From: Clostridiaceae bacterium
Lineage (GTDB): Bacteria; Bacillota; Clostridia; Lachnospirales; Lachnospiraceae
Reading direction: 5' to 3'
DNA length: 41,607 nt
NCBI GenBank assembly: GCA_021200535.1
Contig: JAJQGL010000073.1
Span: 1-41,607, forward strand
The position numbers were made by a program, and so were the translations under genes. Below, piece after piece: positions 2,479 through 38,729 of the stretch. The notes under the pieces are model-generated. The model worked only from the letters and a program-made list of their open reading frames with translations. It was not told where the DNA came from and did no database searches. Each line of letters opens with the position of its first letter. The stretch's first letter is position 1.

Positions 2479-2555
2479 ATAACAGTATACACTGCCGGGC
2501 TTGTAAAAAACACAGGCCGGAGAGGAGCATAAGGCATTGCAGAAAAGGGGTGCTA

Positions 2556-3875
2556 ATGAGTAAGCCAGTTGTAGCCATTGTTGGACGTCCGAATGTGGGG
2601 AAATCCACATTGTTTAACATGATGGCAGGAAAGCGGATTGCGATTGTAAAGGATACGCCGGGAGTGACAAGGGACCGCATATATGCGGATGTTTCCTGGC
2701 TGAATTATCAGTTTACAATTATGGATACCGGCGGCATTGAGCCGGAGAGTAACAACCAGATGCTGCGCAGCATGCAGGAGCAGGCAGAGATGGCGATTGA
2801 AATGGCGGACGTTGTTTTGTTTCTTGTAGATGTAAAGCAGGGTCTGGTAGATGCTGATTTCAGGGTGGCAGATATGCTGCGCAGGGCACACAAGAGGGTA
2901 GTGCTGGTTGTAAATAAAGTCGACAATTTTGAAAAAATGATGCCGGATGTTTATGAGTTTTACAATCTTGGCATCGGGGAACCTCATCCGGTTTCTTCTA
3001 TTGGCAAGCTGGGAATCGGCGATATGCTTGATGAGCTTACGGCTTTGTTCCCTGAAAATCTGGAAGAGGAGGAGGACGAACGGCCGAGAGTTGCGATTAT
3101 CGGAAAGCCAAATGTCGGAAAATCTTCGATTATCAATAAGCTGCTTGGAGAAAACCGTGTGATCGTATCAGATGTTGCCGGCACGACCAGGGATGCGGTT
3201 GATACAGAGATTGTCTGGAACGAAAAGGAATATGTCTTTATTGACACGGCAGGGCTTCGCCGGAAAAACAAAATAAAAGAAGAAATCGAGCGCTATAGCA
3301 TTTTGAGAACAGTTTCAGCGGTAGAACGCGCGGATGTTGTTGTACTGGTAATTGATGCCACAGACGGTGTTACGGAGCAGGATGCGAAAATAGCAGGGAT
3401 TGCCCATGACCGGGGCCGTGGAATTATCATTGCGGTCAACAAATGGGATGCGGTTGAGAAGGATAACCATTCGATAAAAGAATACACACGCAATATCCGA
3501 AATGTGCTGTCGTTTATGCCGTATGCGGAAATCATCTTTATTTCAGCACAGACTGGGCAGAGGCTTCCGAAGCTGTTTGATCTGCTGGACGTTGTGATTC
3601 AGAATCAGCAGCTGCGCGTTGCAACCGGTGTTTTGAATGACATTTTGGCAGAAGCCGTGGCAATGCAGCAGCCGCCTTCCGATAAAGGACGCAGATTAAA
3701 GATTTTCTATATGACACAGGTCAGCATAAAGCCGCCAACTTTTGTTGTTTTTGTAAATGACAAGCGGCTGATGCATTTTTCATATACCCGTTATCTGGAG
3801 AATAAAATACGGGAGGCGTTTGGATTTGGAGGAACTTCATTAAAGTTCCTGATTAGGGAGCGAAAGGAAAAATAA
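2556..3875 (+). CDS. der: Ribosome biogenesis GTPase Der (EngA), double Era-like GTPase
   Basis: 439 residues, the normal length. Two G domains in tandem are clear. The first has GRPNVGKS at residues 10-17, DTPGVTRD, DTGG and NKVD. The second has GKPNVGKS at 183-190, AGTTRD, DTAG and NKWD. A C-terminal KH-like domain follows with the typical FVNDKRLMHFSYTRYLENKIRE segment. Der acts in late assembly of the 50S ribosomal subunit. The upstream in-frame GTG at 2550 is possible, but the ATG at 2556 has an AGGGG 5 bases before it and gives the standard MSKPVVAIVGRP start. plsY begins two bases after the stop, which suggests one transcript der-plsY-gpsA, an order common in Firmicutes. Confidence 0.97.
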   Translation: MSKPVVAIVGRPNVGKSTLFNMMAGKRIAIVKDTPGVTRDRIYADVSWLNYQFTIMDTGGIEPESNNQMLRSMQEQAEMAIEMADVVLFLVDVKQGLVDADFRVADMLRRAHKRVVLVVNKVDNFEKMMPDVYEFYNLGIGEPHPVSSIGKLGIGDMLDELTALFPENLEEEEDERPRVAIIGKPNVGKSSIINKLLGENRVIVSDVAGTTRDAVDTEIVWNEKEYVFIDTAGLRRKNKIKEEIERYSILRTVSAVERADVVVLVIDATDGVTEQDAKIAGIAHDRGRGIIIAVNKWDAVEKDNHSIKEYTRNIRNVLSFMPYAEIIFISAQTGQRLPKLFDLLDVVIQNQQLRVATGVLNDILAEAVAMQQPPSDKGRRLKIFYMTQVSIKPPTFVVFVNDKRLMHFSYTRYLENKIREAFGFGGTSLKFLIRERKEK

Positions 3876-3877
3876 CT

Positions 3878-4528
3878 ATGTTAGAAATCATAATATGCAT
3901 TGCGGCAGGATATTTGTTTGGCTGTGTTTCATGCGGCTATATTGTTGGAAAATTACACCATACGGATATTCGTACCTTAGGCAGCGGAAATGCCGGTACA
4001 ACCAATGTACTGCGTAACTTCGGCGCTGCTTCTGCGGCAGTAACGTTTGCCGGCGATCTGTTAAAGGCAGTTGTGCCGATTTTACTGATCCGTTTTGCCT
4101 TTGACACGCAGACGGACTGTTATCTTCTTTGTTTATACTGCGGCCTTGGCGTCGTTCTCGGCCACAATTATCCATTTTACCTTGGCTTTAAGGGAGGCAA
4201 AGGGATTGCTGTCACGTCAGCGGTTGTCATGTCTGCGGCGCATCCGGTTATGATTCCGATCGGACTTGCCATTTTTCTGGCAGCGGTTATTCTGACGCGC
4301 TATGTTTCTGTCGGTTCCCTTCTTGTTGCATGGTACATACCTGCAAATACACTGGTATTTCACAATCAGGATGCGGATTTTATTCATATGATGATTATCA
4401 GTCTTTTGTTTACTGCATTTGCTTATTTTCAGCATCGTGAAAATATTTCCCGTCTGATTCATGGCAATGAAAATAAATTATGGAAAACGAAACGTGAGAA
4501 GGAGGTTATGGGAAATGAGCAAGGTTAG
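3878..4528 (+). CDS. plsY: Glycerol-3-phosphate acyltransferase PlsY
   Basis: 216 residues, an integral membrane enzyme that moves the acyl group from acyl-phosphate to the sn-1 position of glycerol-3-phosphate, the first acylation in phospholipid synthesis. The first loop motif GSGNAGTTN is at residues 35-43, and the second conserved loop GHNYPFYLGFKGGKG is at 95-109. Several hydrophobic segments separate them, including one at the extreme N-terminus. The C-terminus adds a short charged tail and overlaps the start of gpsA by 14 bases. The pairing is functional as well as physical: GpsA makes the glycerol-3-phosphate that PlsY uses. Confidence 0.96.
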   Translation: MLEIIICIAAGYLFGCVSCGYIVGKLHHTDIRTLGSGNAGTTNVLRNFGAASAAVTFAGDLLKAVVPILLIRFAFDTQTDCYLLCLYCGLGVVLGHNYPFYLGFKGGKGIAVTSAVVMSAAHPVMIPIGLAIFLAAVILTRYVSVGSLLVAWYIPANTLVFHNQDADFIHMMIISLLFTAFAYFQHRENISRLIHGNENKLWKTKREKEVMGNEQG

Positions 4529-5813
4529 TTTTCTCGGCGCGGGGAGCTGGGGGACTGCGCTGGCCATTATGCTGGCAGAGCACGGCCATCAGGTAACTCT
4601 CTGGTCAAAGGTAGAAGATGAGGTTTTGATGCTTCAGAACAACAGGGAGCATATGCAGCGTCTGCCGGGCATAAAACTGCCGGAAAGTATTGTTGTGACA
4701 AGGGAACTTTCGCTTGCCTGCAGTAACCAGGATCTGATTGTTTTTTCGGTGGCATCGCCATTTGTGCGCAGCGTAGCAAAAGAAGCTGCCGGCTTCATTT
4801 CCGAAGGGCAGAAAATTGTGAATGTGGCAAAAGGGATTGAAGAAGCATCACTGGAGACACTTCGCGATATTCTGACAGACGAAATTCCGAAAGCGGATAT
4901 CTCTGTGCTTTCCGGCCCGAGCCATGCGGAAGAGGTTGCCATGAGGATGCCGACTACAGTAGTGGTGGGTTCTATGGAAAAAGAGACAGCGCTTTTTATT
5001 CAGGAAATTTTTATGAACGAATATTTTCGTGTCTATATTAGTCCGGATATCATTGGCATTGAACTGGGCGGTTCTGTCAAAAATGTCATTGCACTGGCGG
5101 CAGGTGCCTGTGATGGTCTGGGTTACGGCGATAATACAAAGGAGACACTTCGCGATATTCTGACAGACGAAATTCCGAAAGCGGATATCTCTGTGCTTTC
5201 CGGCCCGAGCCATGCGGAAGAGGTTGCCATGAGGATGCCGACTACAGTAGTGGTGGGTTCTATGGAAAAAGAGACAGCGCTTTTTATTCAGGAAATTTTT
5301 ATGAACGAATATTTTCGTGTCTATATTAGTCCGGATATCATTGGCATTGAACTGGGCGGTTCTGTCAAAAATGTCATTGCACTGGCGGCAGGTGCCTGTG
5401 ATGGTCTGGGTTACGGCGATAATACAAAGGCAGCGCTTATGACGCGCGGGATTGCTGAAATCACGCGCCTTGGGCTTGCCATGGGGGCGCAGATTGAAAC
5501 GCTTGGAGGACTTTCCGGAATCGGCGATCTGATTGTTACCTGTACCAGCAAGCACAGCCGCAATTATAACGCCGGTTACCTGATGGGAAAAGGCTATTCG
5601 ACAAAAGAGGCTATGGCAGAGGTCAAGCAGGTTGTGGAGGGGGTTTATTCTGCAAAAGCAGTATATAAACTGGCGCAAAAGCACAATATATCCATGCCGA
5701 TTGTGGAACAGCTCTGCAAGGTCCTTTTTGAAGATGGCAAGGCAGAAGAGGTCGTCAGGAATCTGATGACAAGAGACAGACGGATGGAATACCCTGATAT
5801 GGAATGGAAATAA
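4515..5813 (+). CDS. gpsA: Glycerol-3-phosphate dehydrogenase [NAD(P)+] with an internal 96-residue tandem duplication
   Basis: GpsA reduces dihydroxyacetone phosphate to glycerol-3-phosphate. The ATG at 4515, with GGAGG about 10 bases upstream, gives MSKVSFLGAGSWGTALA, the NAD-binding Rossmann start. The frame runs 432 residues, whereas the family is about 335. The excess is exactly one repeat: residues 114-209 are followed by an identical 210-305. Each copy holds the substrate loop SGPSHAEEV (first copy 133-141) and the catalytic-lysine segment GGSVKNVIALAAGA (Lys189, and Lys285 in the second copy). Removing one copy leaves a normal 336-residue enzyme. The remaining C-terminal domain, including the GIGDLIVTC segment, is intact. 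The product as written probably misfolds or is partly active, but the frame is open throughout. An assembly artefact is also possible. Confidence 0.93.
   Translation: MSKVSFLGAGSWGTALAIMLAEHGHQVTLWSKVEDEVLMLQNNREHMQRLPGIKLPESIVVTRELSLACSNQDLIVFSVASPFVRSVAKEAAGFISEGQKIVNVAKGIEEASLETLRDILTDEIPKADISVLSGPSHAEEVAMRMPTTVVVGSMEKETALFIQEIFMNEYFRVYISPDIIGIELGGSVKNVIALAAGACDGLGYGDNTKETLRDILTDEIPKADISVLSGPSHAEEVAMRMPTTVVVGSMEKETALFIQEIFMNEYFRVYISPDIIGIELGGSVKNVIALAAGACDGLGYGDNTKAALMTRGIAEITRLGLAMGAQIETLGGLSGIGDLIVTCTSKHSRNYNAGYLMGKGYSTKEAMAEVKQVVEGVYSAKAVYKLAQKHNISMPIVEQLCKVLFEDGKAEEVVRNLMTRDRRMEYPDMEWK
4853..5430 (+). repeat. Exact 288-bp tandem duplication inside gpsA
   Basis: Bases 4853-5142 and 5141-5430 are identical by direct reading, with a period of 288 bases (96 codons, in frame). 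Copies share only a GG at the joint, so the duplication was made with two bases of microhomology. The bases just outside differ (T4852 against A5140, A5143 against C5431). No base changes have built up, which points to a very recent event or an assembly error. Confidence 0.97.
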
Positions 5814-17719: not shown

Positions 17720-17761
17720 GGAACTGTGCATCGGTGAAAGATGGCGGAACGGGGGATTTAT

Positions 17762-19723
17762 ATGGCTAAAATACATGTGCTGAGTCAGGACACAGTCAAT
17801 AAAATTGCTGCGGGCGAAGTAATTGAACGTCCGATGGCGGTTGTTAAGGAGCTGGTTGAAAATGCAGTTGATGCAATGGCAACGGCGGTTACGGTTGAAA
17901 TCAATGACGGGGGAAAAGCGTTAATCCGGGTTACTGACAATGGCAGCGGCATGGCTGCGGGGGATATTGACCTTGCTTTTTTGCCGCATGCAACCAGTAA
18001 GATTGAAGATGCCGCAGACCTGCTGTCTGTTTCCAGCCTGGGGTTCCGCGGAGAAGCGCTTTCGAGCATTGCGTCCGTTTCACAGCTGGAAATGATTACG
18101 AAAACAAAGGAAGAATTGATGGGTGTCCGCTGCATGATTGACGGCGGAGAGAAAAAGCTGGAGGAGTCGGTCGGCTGTCCGGACGGCACAACATTTTTGA
18201 TCAGAAATTTATTTTATAACACACCGGCACGGCTGAAATTTTTGAAAACTTCTCAGACAGAGGCAGGATATATCAGCGGGCTTGTTGAGCGCATGGCGCT
18301 TTCGCATCCGGATATTTCATTTCGCTTTATTAACCAGAAGCAGACAAAGCTGTCCACATCCGGAAATGGAAATTTAAAGGATGTCATTTATCATATCTTT
18401 GGCAGAGAGATTACATCCAATCTGATTGAAATAAATCAAAAAGCAGTTTTTTTCTCTTTGTCTGGCTTTATTGGAAAGCCGGTTGTTTCCAGAGGAAACC
18501 GCGGCATGATGAATTATTTTATCAATGGCAGATACGTCAAGAGCCAGATTGTCCAGCGCGCCATTGAAGAGGCATATGCGCCTTATACCATGCAGCACCG
18601 CTATCCGTTTACCGCATTGCACATACAGATTGATCCCAAATTGATTGATGTCAATGTGCATCCGCAGAAAATGGAGCTGCGTTTTGTCAATGAAAAAGAG
18701 ATGTTTCAGGGGCTTTTTCAAAGCCTTTCCGAAGCATTAAAAAACAGGGAACTCATTCCGGAGGTGACGTTTCAGAAGGAGAAAAAACAACCGTTGGAAC
18801 GGAAAAATGAATACTCTGCAATAGAGCCGTTTGAGAAACAACGGCGCTCCAAACTGGAGCAGCAAAAAAGGTCATTTGAACCGGAGCGGCAAAACTTGTC
18901 TGCGCCGGAGCAAAAAAGGTCATTTGAACCGGAGCGGCAAAACTTGTCTGCGCCAGAGCAAAAAAGGTCATTTGAACCAGAGCGGCAAAACCGCTCTGGC
19001 GCAGAGCAAAATACGGTTTCGGGGACAGAAGAAAAGACATCTTGCCTTCGAGAGGCTGTTTTTTATGGAAATCCTCCGGAAGTGCCTGAAAAAGCGGTGC
19101 AGGAAAATCTGTTTGATACAGGGATTTTGTCTCCGAAGATAGAGAAAGAAATTCAGATTATCGGTCAGGTTTTTTCGACGTATTGGATTTTACAGTATGA
19201 GGATTCCATGTATCTGGTTGATCAGCATGCTGCCCATGAAAAGGTTTTATATGAACGTTTTTTAAAGGAAACACTGTCGAAAGAGCCTATGTCCCAGCTG
19301 CTGCAGCCGCCGGTTATTCTTACATTGTCTATGGCACAGCAGCAGGCGGTGGAAGAGCATGGCGACATGCTTAAAAAACTGGGGTATCAGATTGACCCCT
19401 TTGGCGGGAAGGAATATGCGGTAAGCGGTGTCCCGGCACATCTGCCATCTGTCGGAACCAGAGAGCTTTTGCTGGATGTGATTGACTCCCTGACACAGGA
19501 GCTGGGAAGAAACAATACGCCGGAGCTTTTGCTCGAAAAGCTTGCCTCCATGTCCTGCAAGGCGGCGGTAAAGGGAAACAGCCAACTGCCGGCCATACAA
19601 ATGGAAGAGCTGTTAAAAGAGCTGATGCAGTTAGAAAATCCGTATCATTGTCCGCATGGACGCCCAACGATGATACGGATTTCCAAACGGGAACTGGAAA
19701 AGAAATTTAAGCGCATTGTATAA
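17762..19723 (+). CDS. mutL: DNA mismatch repair endonuclease MutL
   Basis: 653 residues from the ATG at 17762, with a G-rich ribosome site about 8 bases upstream. The N-terminal GHKL ATPase shows ELVENAVDA, TDNGSGM and LGFRGEAL. The C-terminal domain keeps the nicking endonuclease motifs DQHAAHEKVLYERF, SCKAAVKG and CPHGRP. This is the methyl-independent type of MutL, which makes its own nicks after MutS binds. Between the domains (about residues 340-450) is a Gln/Arg/Glu-rich flexible linker containing three 16-residue repeats. Length is within the range for the family. Linker length is known to tolerate variation, so the repeats probably do not harm activity. Confidence 0.97.
   Translation: MAKIHVLSQDTVNKIAAGEVIERPMAVVKELVENAVDAMATAVTVEINDGGKALIRVTDNGSGMAAGDIDLAFLPHATSKIEDAADLLSVSSLGFRGEALSSIASVSQLEMITKTKEELMGVRCMIDGGEKKLEESVGCPDGTTFLIRNLFYNTPARLKFLKTSQTEAGYISGLVERMALSHPDISFRFINQKQTKLSTSGNGNLKDVIYHIFGREITSNLIEINQKAVFFSLSGFIGKPVVSRGNRGMMNYFINGRYVKSQIVQRAIEEAYAPYTMQHRYPFTALHIQIDPKLIDVNVHPQKMELRFVNEKEMFQGLFQSLSEALKNRELIPEVTFQKEKKQPLERKNEYSAIEPFEKQRRSKLEQQKRSFEPERQNLSAPEQKRSFEPERQNLSAPEQKRSFEPERQNRSGAEQNTVSGTEEKTSCLREAVFYGNPPEVPEKAVQENLFDTGILSPKIEKEIQIIGQVFSTYWILQYEDSMYLVDQHAAHEKVLYERFLKETLSKEPMSQLLQPPVILTLSMAQQQAVEEHGDMLKKLGYQIDPFGGKEYAVSGVPAHLPSVGTRELLLDVIDSLTQELGRNNTPELLLEKLASMSCKAAVKGNSQLPAIQMEELLKELMQLENPYHCPHGRPTMIRISKRELEKKFKRIV
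18863..19006 (+). repeat. Three in-frame 48-bp tandem repeats in the MutL linker
   Basis: Units 18863-18910, 18911-18958 and 18959-19006 each encode 16 residues of the type QKRSFEPERQNLSAPE. Units 1 and 2 differ by one base; unit 3 has a few changes near its end and contains a small inverted repeat (AGAGCGG/CCGCTCT). The near identity indicates recent slippage or unequal exchange. Confidence 0.95.
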
Positions 19724-22301: not shown

Positions 22302-23003
22302 ATGTCAAGAAAAAATAATACAATGAAAGAAATGCCATGCTCGGAACAGCCGTATGAGAAGTGTGAAAAATATGGCGCGCAAATCCTGTCGGATGCAGAG
22401 CTTATGGCTGTCGTGATTCGTACCGGCAGCTGTGGTGAAACCTCGATTGACCTGTCAAAACGGATACTGGAGATACTTCCGGGACGTTCCCTGAACGGTC
22501 TGTTTCAGGTTTCTAAAGAGCAGCTTTGTGATTTAAAGGGAATCGGCAGGGTAAAAGCAATCCAGCTGCTTTGCCTTGCAGAGATTACAAAGAGAATGCT
22601 GCGCAGTGATGAGCAGAAAAAGCGCCTGACCTGCGGCGGGCCGGCAGACATTGCAACATATTATATGGCGGAAATGCGTTTTTTAGAGACGGAACAGGCG
22701 CGCCTGTTGTGTCTGGATGGGAAAAATGCAATCGCGAAGGAGCATGTAATCTCGGTGGGCTCTTTTAATTCGGTTATGGCGTCGCCGAGAGAGGTTTTTT
22801 ACTATGCGCTAAAGTATAAAGCGGTATCAATTATCCTGATGCATAATCATCCATCCGGGGATCCTTCCCCCAGCAAGGATGATATTTCTGTGACCAGAAG
22901 AATCCGGGAGACAGGAAATATGGTCGGTATTCCGCTGATTGACCATATAATCATCGGGAACAACCGATATATCAGTCTGAAGGAATGCGGATATCTGCCG
23001 TAA
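22302..23003 (+). CDS. radC: RadC/JAB-domain protein
   Basis: 233 residues. An N-terminal helix-hairpin-helix part (LCDLKGIGRVKAIQLL) is followed by the JAB/MPN metalloprotease-like domain with HNHPSGDPSPSKDD at residues 181-194, where His181, His183 and Asp194 form the JAMM metal site. The family was named for a DNA-repair phenotype later traced elsewhere, so its true role is open. ATG at 22302 with GGAGGG 5 bases upstream inside a hairpin. It lies between the PLP enzyme and the mre cluster; radC beside mreB is a common Firmicutes arrangement. Confidence 0.95.
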   Translation: MSRKNNTMKEMPCSEQPYEKCEKYGAQILSDAELMAVVIRTGSCGETSIDLSKRILEILPGRSLNGLFQVSKEQLCDLKGIGRVKAIQLLCLAEITKRMLRSDEQKKRLTCGGPADIATYYMAEMRFLETEQARLLCLDGKNAIAKEHVISVGSFNSVMASPREVFYYALKYKAVSIILMHNHPSGDPSPSKDDISVTRRIRETGNMVGIPLIDHIIIGNNRYISLKECGYLP

Positions 23004-23016
23004 AGGGGAGCATTAC

Positions 23017-23132
23017 ATGCAACTATGTATGCAAAGATTGCCATGCAACTATGCAAGCAAAAATTGCATGCAAAAATTGCAAGCAAAAATTGCATGTAAA
23101 AATTGCAAGCAAAAATTGCATGCAAATAAACG
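23017..23132. repeat. Short tandem repeat block between radC and mreB
   Basis: Five 13-bp units of the form A(A/T)G(C/T)AAAAATTGC run head to tail at 23055-23119, followed by a partial unit; alternate units give a 26-bp period. Degenerate copies with ATGCAACTATG extend upstream to about 23017. Most units contain the small inverted repeat GCAA/TTGC, and adjacent units make TTGCATGCAA palindromes. There are no spacers, so it is not a CRISPR. Confidence 0.9.
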
Positions 23133-23205: not shown

Positions 23206-24243
23206 ATGGCAAAGAGAACTTTTGGTATTGATTTTGGCACCGATACCATTAAAGTATATAAAAAGGGAGATGGAATTGTCCTGTTGGAAAGATGTGCCGT
23301 AGCGCTTACCGGCAAGGAGAAAAAAACGATTGCGATTGGCGAGCAGGCATATGAAATGTATGAGAAGGCGCCGCCGAGCATCCGGGTTTCCATGCCGCTG
23401 AAGCGGGGCGTGGTTTCGCAGCTTCAGGACATGCTGGCACTGTGGAATTATATGGGGAAACGGATTTCCGGGAAACGAAAATTAAACCGCTGCCAGTTTT
23501 ATATTGCAGTCCCTGCAGACATTACGGAAGTAGAAAAAAAAGCATATTCGCATATTGTCACAGACTCGGAAAGCAAATCGCACAACGTCAGCCTGATTGA
23601 CAAGCCGGTAGCGGATGCTTACGGTTTGGGACTGGACGTTGAAAAATCACGCGGTATTCTGGTGGTTAATCTGGGTGCGGATACGACAGAGATTTCTGTG
23701 CTTTCTCTGGGAGGACTGGTCACGACCAGGCTGATTCCATATGGCGGCAATGATTTTGACAGGGCCATTCAGGGCTATATCCGCAAAAAATATAATTTTA
23801 TCATTGGACTGAAAACGGCAGAACAGATTAAGATCCGCCTTGTTGCAATCGGTGCGGATGATGCACAGGCTACTGTGGTAGGAAGAGATGTTCTCAAGGG
23901 GCTTCCGGGGGAAGTTACTGTTTCCGGTAAAGAGATTTTTCCTCTGGTAAAAGATATTTTTTACTCGATTGCCTCGGAGGTCAGATCTATTCTGGAGCAT
24001 ACGCCTCCGGAAATCTCAACGGAAATTTATCACAATGGCATTTATCTGACCGGGGGCACCTCTTTCGTGCGCGGACTGGATCAGTTTATGGCAAATCAGA
24101 TCAATATCCGGGTGAATACGACAGACAGCGCACAGAAAACAGTTGTGTCAGGAATCGGATATCTGGCAGAACATCCAAAGTTAGCTGCAAGATATGCAGT
24201 TCCTCTGGACCAGGAGCATGCTTCAACGAAGAAAAAGGCATAG
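23206..24243 (+). CDS. mreB: MreB-like rod-shape actin homologue, divergent
   Basis: 345 residues, first gene of the mre cluster. The actin/MreB fold is recognisable: the start GIDFGTDTIKVY, the YIAVPADITEVEKKA segment, the phosphate-2 region and the C-terminal LTGGTSFVRGLDQFM. It normally forms membrane-bound filaments that guide cell-wall synthesis. Several usual residues differ. The phosphate-2 motif, DIGGGTTE in typical MreB, reads NLGADTTE at residues 155-162, and the EEPMAAA segment reads DKPVADA, putting Lys133 where a Glu assists hydrolysis. ATP binding or turnover may be weakened. Position before mreC-mreD-PBP2 supports the cell-shape role. Confidence 0.9.
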   Translation: MAKRTFGIDFGTDTIKVYKKGDGIVLLERCAVALTGKEKKTIAIGEQAYEMYEKAPPSIRVSMPLKRGVVSQLQDMLALWNYMGKRISGKRKLNRCQFYIAVPADITEVEKKAYSHIVTDSESKSHNVSLIDKPVADAYGLGLDVEKSRGILVVNLGADTTEISVLSLGGLVTTRLIPYGGNDFDRAIQGYIRKKYNFIIGLKTAEQIKIRLVAIGADDAQATVVGRDVLKGLPGEVTVSGKEIFPLVKDIFYSIASEVRSILEHTPPEISTEIYHNGIYLTGGTSFVRGLDQFMANQINIRVNTTDSAQKTVVSGIGYLAEHPKLAARYAVPLDQEHASTKKKA

Positions 24244-37742: not shown

Positions 37743-38729
37743 ATGTTTACACCAATTGATATTCAGAATCATTCTTTAAAAACGGCAGTGAGGGGTTACA
37801 GCAAAAAGGAAACGGATGATTTTTTGGAGCAGATTCTTGCCAGCTATGAAGAGTTATATAAAGAAAATCGCGAATTAAAGGATAAAGTATCTTCCCTGAG
37901 CGAAGGAATCCAATATTATAAAAAAATGGAAACAACACTGCAAAAGGCGCTTGTCCTTGCAGAAAAAACTTCCACAGAAACGCAGGAAGCTGCAAAGAAT
38001 ACAGCGGATGCGCTGGTAAAGGAAGCGCAGGCAAAGGCGGATTCGATTGAAAAAGAGGCGCAGGCAAAGGCAGAGGCTTTAAAGAAAGAAACACAGGCAT
38101 ATTCTGAGATTACAAAGTCAGATGCAAACCGCGAACTGGAGGCGACCAGAAATCATGTCCGCAAACTCGTGCAGAGCTATGAAAACTACCGTCTGCAGTT
38201 TAAAAAGCTTGCTGAATCACAGATTGAAATGCTGGATAGTGAACATTTTTCTATTTTTGTACCAGAGCTGTCCGAGCTGTTAGATGATGCTCCGTCTGCA
38301 GATGAAGTCATGGAGGCAGAGGGCGCAGTACCGATCAATATCAGCAGAAAGGAAGAGTTTGCTGCTCCGGCTGCTGATACAGAAAATGTTAAGCAGGAAG
38401 AAGATTCGGTTGATTCGGCTGCTGCGCAGGAGAGTATTGGGCAGGAAGAAGATTCTGCTGATTCGGTTGCTGTTCAGGATGGCGTTGGGCAGGAAGAAGA
38501 TTCTGCTGATTCAGTTGCTGTTCAGGATGGCATTGGGCAGGAGGAAGATTCTGCTGCAGAGGCGGAAGAGGAATATTCAAAAGAAGCTGCAGCTGCAGCC
38601 GAATCAGGCGAATGGACTGACAACACCCCGAAAACAGAGGATTATAACAGCATCAATATTTCCCGGACAGTAACTCCGGATGCAGAAGCGGATGCCGATT
38701 CGCCTTTTACCTTTATTGATACGGAATAA
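37743..38729 (+). CDS. divIVA: DivIVA-domain cell division protein with repeated acidic tail
   Basis: 328 residues with GGAGG just upstream. The lipid-binding start FTPIDIQNHSLKTAVRGYSKKETDDFLEQILASYEELYKENRELKDKV is typical. A long coiled coil (about 30-150), including a Lys/Glu/Ala repeat stretch, follows. The tail from about residue 175 is strongly acidic and contains three 16-residue repeats. DivIVA marks curved membrane at poles and septa. Length is above the roughly 160-residue B. subtilis protein, mostly from the tail. Confidence 0.94.
   Translation: MFTPIDIQNHSLKTAVRGYSKKETDDFLEQILASYEELYKENRELKDKVSSLSEGIQYYKKMETTLQKALVLAEKTSTETQEAAKNTADALVKEAQAKADSIEKEAQAKAEALKKETQAYSEITKSDANRELEATRNHVRKLVQSYENYRLQFKKLAESQIEMLDSEHFSIFVPELSELLDDAPSADEVMEAEGAVPINISRKEEFAAPAADTENVKQEEDSVDSAAAQESIGQEEDSADSVAVQDGVGQEEDSADSVAVQDGIGQEEDSAAEAEEEYSKEAAAAAESGEWTDNTPKTEDYNSINISRTVTPDAEADADSPFTFIDTE
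38397..38552 (+). repeat. In-frame 48-bp tandem repeats in the DivIVA tail
   Basis: Units 38397-38444, 38445-38492 and 38493-38540 encode variants of EEDSADSVAVQDGIGQ, and a partial fourth starts at 38541. Units 2 and 3 differ by two bases, while unit 1 is older. The 48-base period equals that in mutL, with unrelated sequence. Confidence 0.93.

Follow-up and report, generated by a model that had tools for sequence, protein, structure and literature searches.

An exact in-frame tandem duplication of 96 codons within gpsA in the genome assembly of a Clostridiaceae bacterium

We describe here a gpsA gene that carries an exact internal tandem repeat, located in a stretch of 41,607 nucleotides (the window; contig JAJQGL010000073.1 of assembly GCA_021200535.1, Clostridiaceae bacterium, from the gut). 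The gene order at the locus is der, plsY and then gpsA, and its features are as follows.

2550..3875, + strand, der/engA, neighbour (TIGR03594, 576.7 bits, cut-off 306.7)
3878..4528, + strand, plsY (TIGR00023, 149.7 bits, cut-off 137.2), overlapping the gpsA start by 14 bases
4515..5813, + strand, gpsA, NAD(P)H-dependent glycerol-3-phosphate dehydrogenase (432 codons)
4853..5142, + strand, repeat copy 1, 290 bases (unit 4853–5140; residues 114–209)
5141..5430, + strand, repeat copy 2, 290 bases (unit 5141–5428; residues 210–305)
5141..5142, + strand, the GG common to both copies, a 2-bp microhomology at the novel junction

The gpsA start at 4515 (MSKVSFLGAGSWG) was picked by comparison with relatives, and the list of open reading frames also offers an upstream ATG at 4461. 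The product as a whole scores above the curated cut-offs of the GpsA family, with 560.8 bits in two matched stretches for NCBIfam NF000941 (cut-off 423), 239.5 bits for PF07479 (cut-off 25) and 204.9 bits for PF01210 (cut-off 23.1), and its best solved sequences are 1z82 and 3k96. Ordinary GpsA (PF01210/PF07479, NF000941) passes the same cut-offs but has about 336 residues in which each segment occurs once, whereas this product has 432 residues, with residues 114–209 repeated. Descent from gpsA thus stands, with an altered architecture.

Exact-repeat scans recover two identical 290-base copies, 288 bases apart, and Tandem Repeats Finder describes the same interval (4853–5430) as 2.0 copies with a period of 288, matching at 100% and free of indels. 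The 290-base repeat is no chance match; among the other exact tandem repeats listed for the window, the longest has 46 bases. With a slash marking each border, the novel join reads ...AATACAAA/GGAGACACTT... (in short, ACAAA/GGAGAC), the entry border ...GCATCACT/GGAGACACTT... (ATCACT/GGAGAC), and the exit border ...AATACAAA/GGCAGCGCTT... (ACAAA/GGCAGC), and the overlap is therefore GG. The 288-base unit amounts to 96 codons, so the frame is kept (the chance that a duplication does this by itself is 1 in 3), residues 114–209 are letter-for-letter the same as residues 210–305, and the reading frame continues through both copies without internal stops. An earlier, sequence-only reading had described just such an exact in-frame duplication of 96 codons, joined at a GG and encoding a 432-residue product, and is confirmed on these points. 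It had also placed the substrate loop and the catalytic lysine within the doubled segment, and SGPS, which we take to be the substrate loop, and GSVKN, whose lysine is presumably catalytic, do each occur twice. Its proposal of two partial active sites is borne out for the part with the loop and the lysine, which is doubled, but not for the nucleotide motif GAGSWG or for GDL and SRN in the C-terminal part, each of which occurs once in the 432-residue product. As read from its motifs, the protein carries one complete set and an extra part.

A search of the whole assembly with PF07479, for the second gpsA that the same reading had suggested looking for, returns only this locus (two pieces in one frame), a copy count taken from an assembly that is about 91% complete and whose missing part could hold another copy. 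Bypass through glycerol kinase was considered and set aside, as no match in the assembly reaches the TIGR01311 cut-off of 590.35 bits, the best having 242.6.

Among the matches listed, no relative has the doubled segment. The closest relative, L002, is a MAG of an uncultured Lachnospiraceae (isolate name Lapin-002) whose gpsA appears to be the same gene as that of L004; it encodes 336 residues, and 336 + 96 = 432. A match to gpsA is present in 24 of the 27 other genus genomes, the remaining three (G009, G011 and G026) having listed completeness values of 63, 88 and 76%, and a second copy is absent from all genus matches listed. In each complete gene the query matches twice, with overlap, within a single ordinary frame of 338–383 amino acids, as a query that carries the segment doubled should do on a single-copy gene; the incomplete genes are those of G017, which lies on two contigs, and of G027, with one match in a frame of 206. 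Gene length was examined at 20 relative loci, 18 of them readable (L005 and L020 gave none); 15 of the 18 encode 336–341 residues, and the longer frames of L007 (351), L009 (347) and L022 (383) began upstream of the settled start. As to conspecific strains, the scan of genome contigs yielded one relative only, L002, which is single-copy and 83% identical in its best segment. In the wider family PF07479 is present in 380 of 396 genomes, with no doubled gpsA among the matches listed, where the longest frames are 451 (the present gene), 411 and 404. A 30-base junction pattern has 0 matches in viral contigs, and megablast against plasmids gives no match. We also note that, among the 16 genomes of the 396 that lack a PF07479 match, G087 and G341 (genus g61) and G202 and G414 (genus g176) are each at least 93% complete and represent both genomes seen of each genus, which hints at real gpsA loss in some relatives.

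Nucleotide identity of the gpsA pieces to L002, the closest relative found, is 74–79% (21–26% difference). The dN/dS values against L002 are 0.043 for the N-terminal part, 0.026 for each copy and 0.090 for the C-terminal part, with dS at 1.4–2.9 and thus near saturation in the four pieces, and three further relatives give 0.045–0.127 where dS is computable (for L008 it is not computable for the unit); these runs cover four of the 17 distinct relative genes. Strong constraint in all four pieces suggests that purifying selection acted on gpsA up to the time of the duplication and that the gene was therefore functional until recently. The absence of differences over 288 sites places the divergence of the copies at no more than about 1% (95% upper bound). 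The sequence-only reading had called the event very young, which holds relative to species divergence (about 1% against 21–26%). In generations the bound is weak: the copies can be many generations old, and recombination between them could keep them identical by erasing differences.

The borders of the repeat are plain. Among 39,508 joins between sites 288 bases apart in the rest of the window, 18% have microhomology of at least 2 bp, and the GG overlap is at chance level and ordinary. Inverted repeats no more than 60 bases from the breakpoints do not exceed 6 bp, the two breakpoint regions (50 bases each side) share no word longer than 7 bp (the longest is GGGATTG, 7 bp and out of register), and no mobile element was seen at the repeat ends. 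A repeat-mediated or site-specific origin was rejected because homology at the ends is lacking. What is present is an exact head-to-tail copy, 100% identical over 290 bases, with only GG shared at the ends, as in illegitimate tandem duplication. Spontaneous RecA-independent tandem duplications in bacteria resemble the gpsA case in their exact head-to-tail copy, clean ends and short microhomology, although the gpsA duplication differs from them in that it spans only 288 bp, lies within one gene and is in frame.

The type of assembly bears on what the contig can show. The assembly, G000, comprises 2,894,690 bases in 118 contigs, with a completeness of 91.12 and a contamination of 1.98. Pairwise comparison of 145 contig ends gives 16 pairs with a common end of at least 15 bases, and in 13 of these the first 54 or 55 bases are identical and in none more than 55; a single group of four ends accounts for six of these 13, which leaves eight independent groups. 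Of the four N gaps seen, one is 10 N long and the others 100 N; the same 55 bases flank one 100-N gap (L058) on both sides, which is not so for the other three gaps. The common contig ends and the flanks of the L058 gap suggest that short reads were assembled through a de Bruijn graph at k=55, which is the metaSPAdes default. The exact repeat in gpsA is longer than this k and would therefore form a loop in a k=55 graph. A path through the loop would need 56-mers across the junction, and because of this need the writing of two copies makes read support likely, so that the junction is probably present in some reads. Such a path shows two copies at the least, and the graph would look the same if one-copy and two-copy cells were mixed; the contig is therefore no proof of exactly two copies per cell. 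The sequence-only reading had offered three options, a tolerated insert, reversion in part of the population and a wrong assembly; given this assembly type, a mixed population or an artefact is at least as likely as fixation in the strain.

Duplications of this kind are bound neither to gpsA nor to coding sequence. A scan for exact repeats of at least 40 bases within 5 kb, applied to 1,414,205 bp of G000 in 96 stretches (about half of the assembly), found two exact tandem duplications of at least 100 bp in 1.41 Mb, that in gpsA (288) and a 213-bp duplication in G000:C29 (L055, 2026–2451). The latter has 0-bp microhomology and is essentially intergenic, with the start of a 649-aa ORF on one side and a 160-aa ORF on the other. 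It overlaps a mechanically called ORF by that ORF's first 25 bases, but a later ATG of that ORF would make the duplication wholly intergenic. Its presence elsewhere in the assembly weakens the notion of gpsA as a special target. Non-tandem exact repeats of at least 100 bases in G000 are one of 219 bases with copies 2,190 apart (L142) and one of 130 bases with copies 162 apart (L151). Three relatives (396,138, 320,000 and 80,000 bases; 796,138 bp) contain no exact repeat of at least 100 bases within 5 kb, and two duplications in 1.41 Mb versus none in 0.80 Mb is no significant excess.

Several other repeats were seen in passing. The 649-aa ORF beside the 213-bp duplication looks helicase-like by eye, and the L151 repeat is a direct repeat at the very start of its contig (G000:C85, 1–292), probably a repeat array or a loop cut by the assembly. 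The relative G021 (L084–L102) has many short exact repeats spaced about 40–160 bases apart, far more than G000, G001 and G018. Contig G000:C15 (L041) carries a CRISPR-like repeat, GTATTCCCCGCATGGGCGGGGGTGATCC, at 88 and 1439, and a 90-base repeat-spacer-repeat piece is present there twice, 1351 bases apart. Within the window, the linker of MutL (17741–19723) holds three in-frame repeats of 48 nt (KRSFEPERQNLSAPEQ and variants of it) at 18861–19011, and the length of the MutL frame varies within the genus, e.g. from 592 to 730 aa; in Salmonella, repeats in mutL are known to influence mutation rate. The ORF at 37743–38729 contains both a 33-nt tandem array (38004–38089) and a 48-nt tandem array of 4.4 copies (38344–38556), and a 13/26-nt array with the consensus ATGCAAAAATTGC occupies 23012–23125, between the ORFs at 22302–23003 and 23206–24243.

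We favor, with a probability of roughly 0.55, a recent illegitimate duplication that arose in a single step, has its junction in a sizeable fraction of molecules, and was written as two copies by the assembler. Joining at the 2-bp microhomology, illegitimate and not repeat-mediated, would have generated a single-step tandem duplication inside gpsA. No less than a sizeable share of the sequenced molecules would carry it, and de Bruijn assembly of short reads would turn the resulting loop into two copies. From the type of assembler, the junction would be carried by reads. The duplication is perhaps confined to part of the sampled population, and it would be a neutral or harmful transient and no adaptation, with one-copy cells coexisting or arising through recombination between the 290-bp repeats. 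Our best guess for the 432-residue protein, if it is made, is a GpsA core with a looped-out 96-residue stretch that would be poorly active or unstable.

The main rival, less probable but serious, is an artefact of assembly or library, in which chimeric reads or a wrong traversal of the loop would have doubled the segment and every cell would have an ordinary gpsA. What the gpsA case shares with short-read loop artefacts is a fragmented assembly in which an exact repeat exceeds k=55, and the 118 contigs, 91.12% completeness, k=55-type contig ends and stretches of N (10 or 100 long) fit this origin, as do the 2-bp and 0-bp microhomologies of the two long tandem duplications, which are like random joins, and the lack of long exact repeats in the 796,138 bp of the three relatives. 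However, the difference between assembly and relatives is not significant, the frame is kept, and the artefact, unlike a real duplication, would require either chimeric reads over the junction or a mistake by the assembler; isolated chimeric reads are normally removed by coverage filters. In a study of Salmonella populations, junctions were kept if their microhomology exceeded the chimeric-read expectation, and five of the eight duplications tested were verified, all with at least 11 bp of microhomology, with those of 7, 9 and 17 bp unverified (PMC3411829). By comparison with these data, the gpsA junction with its 2 bp is weaker as a true rearrangement, and the artefact therefore gains weight; the comparison also speaks against repeat-mediated formation of the gpsA duplication. 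The artefact gains too from the description of GpsA as an essential protein in another study (PMC5661948), which, together with the single locus, suggests that a fixed disruptive insert would be costly.

Fixation with tolerance, in which every cell would have two copies and make an active 432-residue GpsA with the 96-residue segment looped out, is unlikely. The open frame without stops is in its favor, as are the single gpsA locus and the lack of a glycerol kinase above cut-off in the assembly, although a 290-bp tandem repeat should recombine back. Modeling of the protein, also proposed in the sequence-only reading, gave one GpsA fold with the other copy at low confidence from an alignment that covered copy 1 only. 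The AlphaFold2 model, made with 32 pieces from 16 relatives, has a mean pLDDT of 76.0 with block means of 32–60 for residues 201–300, versus a mean of 90.2 and blocks of 77–97 for residues 1–320 in the single-copy control (L002 with 15 other relatives). It matches Coxiella GpsA 3k96_B over 323 of 325 residues at 1.4 Å with long low-confidence stretches left out, and the whole model has a Foldseek target TM-score of 0.96; however, the alignment rows cover copy 1 in 32 of 32 cases and copy 2 in 0 of 32, so that the model is biased, and AlphaFold2 does not judge stability. One complete GpsA fold with one copy outside as a low-confidence insert is possible. In the modeled arrangement the insert breaks into helix 206–226 of the control, and the alternative, with copy 1 as an insert that would enter just before helix 116–123, looks gentler. 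Internal tagging of GpsA has been carried out, reportedly in E. coli. Short internal tags gave wild-type-like growth at all tested sites, but at about 7–18 residues, as against 96 here, these tags show tolerance to small inserts only (PMC5661948).

A programmed or selected switch that turns phospholipid synthesis on and off through reversible duplication is very improbable, as its one favorable point is that recombination can collapse perfect tandem repeats, and against it are the 2-bp junction, breakpoints with no inverted repeat longer than 6 bp or shared word longer than 7 bp, and the lack of recurrence among the genus matches listed. It is equally improbable that a real, population-common duplication would act as a high-frequency reversible switch or constitute a GpsA shaped by natural evolution, in which an additional, swapped Rossmann segment alters phospholipid flux. 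We found no evidence of a new system or of a programmed switch.

Whichever explanation applies, understanding of GpsA is unchanged. If the repeat is an artefact, it illustrates that fragmented short-read assemblies can yield wrong gene models despite an open frame. If the duplication is real, as in the single-step illegitimate event that we favor, it would show a young duplication caught within a supposedly essential gene, a useful case for studying the persistence of such mutations.
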